From Verrucomicrobiia bacterium (GTDB taxonomy: Bacteria > Verrucomicrobiota > Verrucomicrobiia > Verrucomicrobiales > Akkermansiaceae), in NCBI GenBank assembly GCA_030432565.1, contig JAUIGV010000037.1, positions 1 through 51,407 of the forward strand: a stretch of DNA of 51,407 nt. Reading direction: 5' to 3'. The notes below the pieces were generated by a model. The model had not been told where the DNA came from and ran no database searches. It saw nothing but the letters and a program-made list of their open reading frames with translations. Made by a program: the position numbers and the translations under genes. Shown here one piece after another: positions 38,122 to 40,734 of this stretch (its first letter is position 1; each line of letters starts with the position of its first letter).

Positions 38122-38334
38122 TCAAAAGAGCGCGGCAGCTTCGCCGGGAAGCGGGAAGTGCCCGCTTCTCTCCTTCTTCCAAATCACTTCGCCATCCCGA
38201 CGAATCTCAAAAATCCCCCCGCTTCCTCCAACCAAAATCACTTTTTGACCGGCGGTTTTCTCAATTTCGGCCGACACACGGTCTGCCTCGGGACGATAGT
38301 TTCATTGCTCGCAATATTCAATTTCGATTGCCAT
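38122..38334 (-). CDS. SelW/Rdx-family selenoprotein (Cys-x-x-Sec, in-frame TGA)
   Basis: From ATG 38334 the frame reads MAIEIEYCEQ, TGA (38302-38304), NYRPEADRVSAEI, a stretch to KVILVGGSGGIFEIRRDGEV, then IWKKERSGHFPLPGE and a final TGA. With Sec at residue 11 the product is 70 residues. This is the full length and layout of SelW/Rdx proteins: a beta strand ending in Y-C-x-x-U, a helix, then a GxGGxFEV-DG hairpin and a KxxxGxFP strand. The family has a thioredoxin-like fold and acts in thiol redox reactions. A stem-loop at SECIS distance follows the TGA. It lies 71 bases after the MBOAT gene, probably in the same operon. The alternative is a Cys homologue with a TGC-to-TGA mutation or read error, but the rest of the frame is undamaged. 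Confidence 0.82.
38269..38287 (-). promoter_or_regulatory. candidate bacterial SECIS stem-loop
   Basis: In the mRNA, 15-33 bases after UGA, GGC-A-GAC pairs with GUC-G-GCC around the 5-base loop CGUGU: three pairs, one A-G mismatch, three pairs. The loop starts 22 bases after UGA and has G at its second position. Bacterial SECIS elements are expected to have an apical loop about 16-37 bases downstream with G among the first two loop bases. Folded by hand; the stem is short. Confidence 0.5.
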
Positions 38335-38405: not shown

Positions 38406-39287
38406 TTAAAGCACGGGGCCGATGAAATCGAAAATCCGGAGGCATCTCGCAATCACCTGGGTTTGAAACTCAGGGGGAAAGAGAACCCCGAGAGGCACGG
38501 CAACCAGAAGGAGGGCTGGAATCTTTCCAAGCGGTCTCCCCCATCTTCCCTCCAGGACCACCAGCAGGCCATGCACCGAAAAAAATGCGGTTGGCAGACC
38601 ATAACCCGCTTCCACCGGCAAGGTAATGGCAAGCTCGTGGAGGAGCCCCGACCCTACAAAGACTGCCATCGTCCCTGCCTCGCGTCCCAACAAACCTTCA
38701 ATCGGCCTTCCCACCAACCGTTGCATCATTTGCGAATATCCAACGTTCCATCTTCGACTCCAAAAATCCGCCACTCCGCGTGCTTTCAGAAGATTCGGAA
38801 ACAAGGTGCGCACTGGAAAGCCGGCCGCCCGGAGGCCCCCCTTGAGAACTCGAAGCGCTCCAAAGTGAAACCCGAGACTGATCGGCAAAAACATCACGAG
38901 AATCTGACGCCACTCCATTTCCCAAACCAACCAAGCCCCCAAAGTGCCTGTCACCATCAAAACGCACCCCCAAGCGACATCTTCCTTCCAAACCAGGTTC
39001 CTCCGGGTTTTTGCAAATGTCGCCGGATCCATTCCGAACCAACCCAAGCAAAAAACAAGGTAACGGCGCCAGCTGAGGTGGCCGCCCCACGCCCGATAGA
39101 CGAGCCCTTTCATCCCGGCGAGAAGCACGCCACAAATTCCCACCATTCGCCAAATCGGATCAGCGGACAAAAGGATATGGTTGGCGAACCACAACAGCAA
39201 AAGAACTAAAATCCAGGCAATCCACATGGAAAACTTCAGCCTCCCGAAAAACAGGCCAAGGAAGATCAGAACGACAATCCAAATCAT
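38406..39287 (-). CDS. wax-synthase-like MBOAT O-acyltransferase
   Basis: ATG 39287 overlaps the upstream stop as ATGA and gives 293 residues; an earlier in-frame start at 39311 adds eight polar residues. The protein has about seven membrane helices. Near residues 185-205 is DFWSRRWNVGYSQMM, the FWxRRWN motif of the wax-synthase domain. Near 225-240 is FVGSGLLHELAITLP, with the conserved catalytic His of membrane-bound O-acyltransferases in the SGLLHE context. The family esterifies alcohols, sterols or diacylglycerol with acyl groups. Chain length and acceptor are not readable. The coupling to two membrane proteins suggests a small envelope-lipid complex. Confidence 0.8.
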   Translation of the reverse strand: MIWIVVLIFLGLFFGRLKFSMWIAWILVLLLLWFANHILLSADPIWRMVGICGVLLAGMKGLVYRAWGGHLSWRRYLVFCLGWFGMDPATFAKTRRNLVWKEDVAWGCVLMVTGTLGAWLVWEMEWRQILVMFLPISLGFHFGALRVLKGGLRAAGFPVRTLFPNLLKARGVADFWSRRWNVGYSQMMQRLVGRPIEGLLGREAGTMAVFVGSGLLHELAITLPVEAGYGLPTAFFSVHGLLVVLEGRWGRPLGKIPALLLVAVPLGVLFPPEFQTQVIARCLRIFDFIGPVL

Positions 39288-39712
39288 CCTCCGCCTCCCA
39301 GGTTCCACCAAACCATGATCGCAAAGAAGATCATGAGATACAAAAAGAGCAGAGTTAGCAAACGCTTCGCAAGCCGGTTGAAACGAGTGTCTTTAACCTC
39401 CGCGAGATCAAAGCCAAAGAACTGGAGATACACCCTGACGGACCACCAGAAACAAATAAATCCCGACATCGCCGCAGCAGCCGGACTCGCACTCAACAAC
39501 CAATCCCGGAAACCCAGCGAAAGAATCGCAAAGAACAAATGGCTGGCAAGAATATAGGCCGCATACGTCCAGAAGAGTTCCCGCATCAGCGGACTCAGAT
39601 CGGCAAGCTTCTCCTTCCAACCCAGAATCCGGGGGATCCAAAAACTTGCAATCGTCAGGACAAGCAATCCAAGCCCTGCAAACAACAAACCGTAATTCAA
39701 AACCTCCCTCAT
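39284..39712 (-). CDS. four-helix membrane protein, paralogue of the upstream gene
   Basis: The 142-residue protein has four hydrophobic segments (LLFAGLGLLVLTIASFWI; ELFWTYAAYILASHLFFAIL; AMSGFICFWWSVRVYLQFFGFD; LLTLLFLYLMIFFAIMVWW). Its middle aligns with the gene just upstream: YAAYILASHLFFAILSLGF against HCGYIVMLISGLAILCLGW, and FICFWWSVRVYLQFFGFD against FFTVFWASRVVVQLTYYD. The two are therefore tandem paralogues and may form a heterodimer. Start and stop overlap both neighbours by ATGA. I recognise no named family. Confidence 0.75.
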   Translation of the reverse strand: MREVLNYGLLFAGLGLLVLTIASFWIPRILGWKEKLADLSPLMRELFWTYAAYILASHLFFAILSLGFRDWLLSASPAAAAMSGFICFWWSVRVYLQFFGFDLAEVKDTRFNRLAKRLLTLLFLYLMIFFAIMVWWNLGGGG

Positions 39713-40116
39713 CTTTCGAACAAAAAGGCGGCGCCAAAAACAAGCGCCAGGGTGAAAAACACCATCAGGAAGAAAATATCCCAGAATCGCTCGCGACGAC
39801 GGTATTCAGAATCGTAGTAAGTCAGTTGAACCACCACCCGGCTTGCCCAAAAGACGGTAAAAAAGCCACTCACTACCTTTGACATCCCGCCTTCCAAAAA
39901 CAAGTGCGGCCAACCGAGGCAGAGAATCGCAAGTCCCGAAATGAGCATGACGATATAACCGCAGTGCACATAGAAAATCTGACGGACCAGTTTCTCGGCA
40001 CGGGCCAGGCTTCCGGCATACCCGAGCCGCGGTGCCGCCACAAAATTGGCCACAACCAGGCCCACACAAATCAACCCGGCCAGACGAAGGAGAATAATTG
40101 TATATTCAGCATTCAT
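39709..40116 (-). CDS. four-helix membrane protein, tandem paralogue
   Basis: The 135-residue protein has four hydrophobic segments (IILLRLAGLICVGLVVANFV; HCGYIVMLISGLAILCLGW; VSGFFTVFWASRVVVQLTYY; FLMVFFTLALVFGAAFLF). It is the first gene of a tightly overlapping trio ending in the acyltransferase. It lies 132 bases after the DCC gene, so it may belong to the same transcript or have its own promoter. A degraded resemblance to the GbsR-type palindrome (10 of 18 positions) sits just before its ATG. The family is unknown. Confidence 0.75.
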   Translation of the reverse strand: MNAEYTIILLRLAGLICVGLVVANFVAAPRLGYAGSLARAEKLVRQIFYVHCGYIVMLISGLAILCLGWPHLFLEGGMSKVVSGFFTVFWASRVVVQLTYYDSEYRRRERFWDIFFLMVFFTLALVFGAAFLFER

Positions 40117-40248
40117 CGTTTCATATTTCCATGAGTCTGGTCAGGCGACGCGGTCTTGACCGGTGGCGGTCGTCCGCCCGGCGTAAGAGTCTTTTTATCC
40201 AAGTGATCATTTTTTGTTTACTGGTCTGGGGTTTGGGTGGGTGAAATT

Positions 40249-40734
40249 TCAATGCATCAACTCCGCGCGCCATTCATCGTGATCACTGGCGCATCCGCCA
40301 TCGTCGCAATCCGGAAGCACCATCGAGTGGAGCGTTTCTCGGACTTCCCGGTCTTTCCGGCGAAAAAAGATCTTGCTGAGACCATGGCGGTTGGAAGCAA
40401 GAAGGCGACACATCCGGACCGCCACCGCCAGCATCACGGGCTTGGCGAGCCGACGGGCCAAAGCACGGTGATCGGCGCAACTGTAGAGACACCACACCCA
40501 GGCCTCGGCTCCCCGGAAAATTGCCCCTTCGTCCGTCCGGACAATCATTTCACGAGCAGGATCGAGGGTCCCGACTCCCGGGAAAACCTCCTCGGCAACC
40601 GGTGACTGATACGGAATAAATTGAATTTTAAAGGCCCGCGTCTGACGATTGATCCACTCATGGAAGGTGCAGCACATTCCACAGCGACCATCGTAATAAA
40701 CTTCGATCGAATTGACATGCATTGGGAGATTCAT
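40249..40734 (-). CDS. DCC-family thiol-disulfide oxidoreductase (DUF393)
   Basis: The 161-residue protein opens with EVYYDGRCGMCCTFHEWINRQ, the DxxCxxC motif that gives the family its name. The two thiols sit as in a thioredoxin-like active site. FIPYQSP, EMIVRTDEGAIFRGAEAW and HGLSKIFFRRK further match DUF393. The C-terminus has an unusual acidic, Cys-containing tail (LPDCDDGGCASDHDE) that might bind metal. It has no signal peptide and is probably cytoplasmic or membrane-associated. An 18-bp palindrome shared with the regulator lies 29 bases before its ATG. With the SelW-like protein it gives the cluster two thiol-redox proteins. Confidence 0.88.
   Translation of the reverse strand: MNLPMHVNSIEVYYDGRCGMCCTFHEWINRQTRAFKIQFIPYQSPVAEEVFPGVGTLDPAREMIVRTDEGAIFRGAEAWVWCLYSCADHRALARRLAKPVMLAVAVRMCRLLASNRHGLSKIFFRRKDREVRETLHSMVLPDCDDGGCASDHDEWRAELMH

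Follow-up and report, generated by a model that had tools for sequence, protein, structure and literature searches.

The window, the whole 51,407-nucleotide stretch analyzed here, carries on its minus strand a short reading frame that is interrupted by a TGA codon. Translation from 38334 to 38122 gives MAIEIEYCEQ-TGA-NYRPEADRVSAEIEKTAGQKVILVGGSGGIFEIRRDGEVIWKKERSGHFPLPGEAAALF, followed by a TGA stop at 38124-38122. As the first-pass annotation of this DNA had claimed, the TGA at codon 11 (38304-38302) lies in an otherwise intact frame that continues past it; it is the only interior stop of this copy. With this codon taken as selenocysteine (Sec), residues 8-11 of the protein read CEQU, codon 8 being TGC. 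Near relatives (e.g., L052-L056) have TAG or TAA as their terminal stop at the identical position. The features of the locus are as follows.

38122..38334, minus strand: predicted Rdx/SelW-like selenoprotein gene, 70 residues, CxxU at residues 8-11 (frame, profiles, relatives, structure model)
38302..38304, minus strand: in-frame TGA, codon 11, probably read as Sec (codon 11 in relatives and Sec machinery genes)
38269..38287, minus strand: putative SECIS-like hairpin, consensus register GGC-A-GAC [CGUGU] GUC-G-GCC, with one A.G mismatch in the window copy (covariation among 57 distinct sequences)
38122..38124, minus strand: terminal stop codon, also TGA (translation)

The translated protein matches a single Pfam family, Rdx (PF10262; E=3.3e-17, 62.9 bits against a cut-off of 22.6), from residue 3 onward, and the NCBIfam SelT/W/H model TIGR02174 (52.1 bits against 34.2); the cut-off of the narrower NF041051, a Campylobacter equivalog, was missed (74.3 against 88). 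Because the Pfam and TIGR02174 scores exceed their cut-offs, the frame is no chance event. In the gene's frame, a listing of open reading frames of at least 50 residues shows only the 51-residue, GTG-started tail past the TGA (38122-38277), and gene calling with the standard code would lose such a gene. The first-pass annotation had called it unannotatable, which is too strong, because with the TGA translated the protein exceeds the cut-off of the NCBIfam model. In an AlphaFold model (32 input sequences, mean pLDDT 87.9), residues 3-8 form a strand and the CxxU motif comes after this first strand. A PDB comparison of the model gave 22 matching chains (E<=0.001) that belong to seven entries (2fa8, 3dex, 2p0g, 2obk, 2ojl, 2oka and 2npb), with query TM scores of 0.81-0.89 to 2fa8, 3dex and 2p0g and of 0.63 to mouse SelW (2npb). 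SelW is named in the titles of 2fa8, 2p0g and 2npb, the other entries being titled as uncharacterized or Se-binding proteins. The predicted fold is that of SelW.

Upstream of the gene lies an MBOAT_2 protein (38406-39311), and downstream are a PSCyt1/PSCyt2/PSD1 protein and a DUF1501 protein. The first-pass annotation had placed the gene in an acyltransferase cassette. An MBOAT_2 neighbor is indeed present, but it looks incidental: when the window's neighbors were searched by tblastn (E<=1e-6) against 88 Rdx loci, hits to it were confined to the window's own locus and to L036/L051, which are one same-genus place. No match to it was seen in L052-L056, with 5 kb flanks, where the selenoprotein gene is retained, and we therefore take no function from the neighbors; many of the other loci had flanks of only 1.5 kb. 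The cassette was accordingly rejected as a guide to function, MBOAT_2 not being kept beside the gene among these 88 partly short loci, and no operon partner that would indicate a substrate was seen among the window's neighbors. The block at 38406-40734, which comprises MBOAT_2, two membrane-type proteins without a Pfam match and a DCC1-like thiol-disulfide oxidoreductase, is whole in L051, is reduced to the DCC1-like protein in L053 and has no match in L052 or L054-L056. A scan of the window with Rfam (gathering scores) and ARAGORN gave no match.

Codon 11 in relatives and the selenocysteine machinery

Codons 8 and 11 were read in 88 loci (L021-L108), consisting of the window's own (L021), 29 from among the matches listed in a search of the order, and 58 from named genome records that match the window protein. 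Five places occur in both of the latter sets; the 58 records were retrieved with peptide patterns of the window protein, which favors similar sequences, and the one-TGA copies of G151 and G177 and a second match listed in G144 are left out. Of the 88 loci, 69 have TGA at codon 11 and the other 19 have a Cys codon there (TGC in 17, TGT in 2), with no other codon found, and the TGA-bearing loci include records named Gammaproteobacteria, Myxococcales and others. The sequence past the TGA was compared with that of the window in 14 loci. Eleven of these (L052-L062) each differ by 20-28 synonymous and 6-13 non-synonymous codon changes, L076 by 27 and 15, and L036 and L051, the same place in two collections, by 1 and 0. 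Since synonymous changes outnumber non-synonymous ones, codon comparison indicates that the post-TGA frame is evolving as protein. The first strand, the motif and the adjoining start (M..IEYC) are also kept across relatives, and the sequence upstream of the ATG is not. In a phylum-wide draw of 387 genomes, Rdx was matched in 48, 40 of the matches being without stops and eight having one TGA; five of these eight were read and all are CxxU, the remaining three being the window and two family members, L045 and L039.

The 19 Cys loci form one separate branch (19/19 rows, support 100/99), for which the program warns of a junction with another long branch. These Cys-type proteins come mostly from proteobacterial records, are 36-49% identical to the window protein in the aligned rows and have the same fold, the solved Agrobacterium structure 2fa8 being 40% identical over the model; unlike the window protein they carry CxxC and end in a longer tail, and their sequence past the motif is different. 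An older comparison, in the portion available, states that in organisms with Sec the Cys homologues of SelW-like proteins are very few or absent (PMC1794560). Two genomes of the window's family, G151 and G177, have a Cys-type Rdx of this mostly proteobacterial branch (L022 and L023) beside a one-TGA copy; its possible origin is horizontal acquisition.

All four genes for Sec synthesis and insertion were found in the window's genome (82 contigs, 97% complete). Profile matches lie above the cut-offs for selA (489.1 bits against 267.9), selB (315.6 against 242.25) and selD (386.7 against 125), and there is one tRNA-Sec, the selC product (54.4 bits against the Rfam cut-off of 47), which ARAGORN reports as tRNA-SeC with anticodon TCA. 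The selD gene (L010, G000:C73:16415-17344) has one in-frame TGA, in the stretch LASCGGUASKLGQ, at what is presumably the usual Sec site of SelD; because of this TGA in CGGUASK, the selD product is probably itself a selenoprotein. The order was represented by 189 genomes, of which 31 have Rdx and 61 have selA; all 31 Rdx genomes fall inside the selA set, an overlap whose chance would be 7e-19 for genomes treated as independent, although they are not. One of these Rdx genomes, G012, keeps selA and has only a decayed Rdx copy (L152 316-507; G012:C26:19315-19506) with TAA, TAG and TGA stops.

A covarying hairpin downstream of the TGA

The 42 bases that start with the TGA take 57 distinct forms in the 69 TGA loci, and these were aligned without gaps. 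In this alignment a six-pair helix can be drawn from column 19, closing a five-base loop that reads CGUGU in 34 rows, AGUUU in 13 and one of six other forms in 10; AGUUU is the loop of all 11 loci that carry two TGA codons (see below). The loop G at column 26 is invariant (57/57 rows), and bacterial SECIS elements are described, in the section of the source available to us, as having a small apical loop with a guanosine shortly past the UGA (PMC1088965). Against shuffles which, like all those applied here to pairing, leave the relatedness of the rows uncorrected, 94.2% of cells are paired where the shuffle mean is 78.6% (0/500 as high), and cells with a double change number 49 where the mean is 12.6 (0/500 as high). 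Registers slid by 1-3 are at most 53.2% paired. Four of the six helix pairs have changed on both sides, but that many is seen in 92 of 500 shuffles as well, and it is the number of double-change cells that is exceptional; breaks occur at the outermost pair in 12 of 57 rows and at the next in 2.

The 34 rows that encode the identical peptide ADRVS allow pairing to be followed at wobble positions. Among them the Ala and Ser wobble bases, on which the protein sets no constraint, pair in 31, as against 20.3 by shuffle (0/20000 as high, with 64/20000 equaling the result when Watson-Crick pairs alone are counted), and the Asp and Val wobble bases pair in all 34, as against 32.3 (357/20000). This wobble-wobble covariation supports the idea that the hairpin is maintained apart from the protein. 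The Ala-Ser wobble pair also ranks first by mutual information (0.658), but the unpaired positions 11-32 (0.647) and 11-35 (0.635) follow closely, so relatedness confounds this measure when it is used alone; counting pairs gives the stronger test, its shuffles likewise ignoring relatedness.

The window copy is one of the three Ala-Ser pairing exceptions and has an A.G mismatch there. Its consensus register has a predicted energy of -7.3 kcal/mol, and its lowest-energy fold (-11.6) is in a different register. Folding energy alone was set aside as SECIS evidence in favor of covariation, the z scores of the window being unremarkable (0.13 over 61 nt, -1.65 over 42 nt) and a synonymous-shuffle folding test being weak for single sequences (p<=0.05 in 20/57, median 0.095, window 0.195). 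From these comparisons, support for the putative hairpin is good at the family level and only moderate for the window copy.

Reading of the UGA

What was observed directly, namely the frame, its family, the conservation of the TGA, the machinery genes and the covarying hairpin, is as a whole best explained by a 70-residue Rdx/SelW selenoprotein with a redox role, in which the UGA at codon 11 is read as Sec via SelB and the hairpin; we put the probability of this reading at about 0.95. The ribosome would meet the UGA at codon 11, and SelB carrying Sec-tRNA(UCA) would bind the hairpin that starts ~14 nt downstream, so that Sec is inserted in place of termination, as the machinery genes and the hairpin suggest. 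The product would be a thioredoxin-like protein with Cys8-x-x-Sec11 at the end of its first strand and, judging from its family, may act as a small thiol/selenol oxidoreductase through a Cys-Sec selenenylsulfide. The SelW/Rdx selenoprotein interpretation of the first-pass annotation is thereby supported by the profile match, the sel genes and the TGA in relatives.

Other readings of the codon fit these data poorly. It is very improbable that the gene is a decaying pseudogene or a sequencing error, in which a Cys codon (TGC or TGT) was turned into TGA by mutation or miscall. TGA is one base from TGC and a decayed copy does exist in G012, but the TGA is common to 69 of 88 loci, Gammaproteobacteria and Myxococcales records included, the downstream frame changes mainly at synonymous sites, and the window copy has no other internal stop, whereas the decayed L152, with TAA and TAG besides TGA, is a picture of what real loss looks like. 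About equally improbable is a reading of the TGA as Trp or Cys, by a general change of code or by leaky decoding. Nothing beyond the in-frame TGA itself speaks for it, and against it stand the gene's own terminal TGA, the tRNA-Sec, SelA, SelB and SelD genes of the genome, the confinement of Rdx to selA-bearing genomes in the order (31/31) and the identity of the homologous residue, Cys, which is the usual stand-in for Sec. Least probable of all is that the true gene begins past the TGA and encodes a 51-residue protein without the motif; the GTG-started frame at 38122-38277 exists, but conservation covers the first strand, the motif and the M..IEYC start and ceases before the ATG, and the Pfam match runs from residue 3.

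Taken as a selenoprotein, the window gene is by sequence comparison a genuine and ordinary SelW-like one, the Sec in its protein being what we infer. It shares profile match, motif, size and fold with the bacterial SelW-like CxxU proteins (PF10262/TIGR02174) and differs from them only in its host, an uncultured Verrucomicrobiales/Akkermansiaceae lineage, to which it adds a well-supported selenoprotein. In the excerpts available, SelW-like CxxU proteins head the selenoprotein families by abundance in both the Sargasso Sea set (48 genes; PMC1088965) and the GOS set (427 sequences; PMC2398784), and a later marine survey gives them a share of 11.3%, the largest among those stated (PMC9402790). No paper on Verrucomicrobiota SelW in particular was found among the literature matches listed, the sources having been available in part. 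What rises above the routine here is the wobble-wobble covariation and the existence of relatives with two TGA codons.

Relatives with TGA at codons 8 and 11

Both codon 8 and codon 11 are TGA (Y-U-x-x-U-N-Y) in 11 of the 88 loci, each from a different genome. The window itself is not among them, its codon 8 being TGC and its protein CxxU.

L025-L030, L032, L033, L040, L042, L044 (same order as the window): two-TGA (UxxU) loci, from codon reading

Ten of these genomes are in a family designated f2 and one (G160, with L040) is in the window's family, f1; all are in the order. No two-TGA Rdx was seen among the 48 matches of the phylum-wide draw (387 genomes), nor among the 58 named-record loci, whose search patterns favor sequences like the window protein. 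All 11 genomes have a selA match, above the cut-off in 10, that of G124 being partial and near a contig start. A tRNA-Sec above the Rfam cut-off is found in 9 of 11; no such match was found in G144 and G178, whose assemblies are 79-81% complete, and selB is above the cut-off in G144 and represented in G178 only by a shorter, sub-cut-off match that may be another elongation factor. Four of the genes (L026, L029, L033 and L040) terminate at TGA, making a general change of code less likely. Each has the one hairpin past the second TGA, with the first TGA nine bases farther off. The idea that the first UGA has a hairpin of its own was considered and dropped, the folds differing among the 11 and some pairing UGAGG with CCUCA or more weakly; we infer that one hairpin may serve both UGAs. 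In the tree the UxxU forms are placed among CxxU forms, implying two changes, and one change appears in 2% of 200 bootstrap trees; with few columns, long branches and an unsettled bootstrap, a single UxxU clade is not rejected (p-AU 0.527).

These data make it quite likely that SelW-like proteins of this order have moved from CxxU to UxxU, with UGAs nine nt apart and apparently one hairpin, giving a bacterial diselenide SelW. In the portions of the sources available, the table of a 2026 review gives prokaryotic SELENOW-like proteins as CxxU with one Sec and does not list UxxU (PMC13188914), and UxxU SELENOW is reported in amphioxus and Ostreococcus (PMC7539508). No bacterial SelW with UxxU was found in the accessible parts of the literature on UxxU selenoproteins, subscription papers lying mostly outside that search. 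The amphioxus and Ostreococcus proteins have two Sec in the same motif and family as the 11 relatives but are eukaryotic, and the window protein differs from them in being CxxU; the relatives would extend two-Sec SelW from these two reported eukaryotes to bacteria. Two Sec two residues apart also occur in SelL, where they are inserted with a single SECIS (PMC3316567, in part), and in prokaryotic Prx-like UxxU selenoproteins (PMC2398784, in part); both belong to other families and, again, the window protein is CxxU. If the proposed shift is real, the UxxU relatives would allow a test of whether a single bacterial SECIS can act on two UGAs close together, and the window's family, having both CxxU (window) and UxxU (G160), would contain a natural pair with which to probe the benefit of the second Sec and the way in which a lone SECIS can serve both codons.
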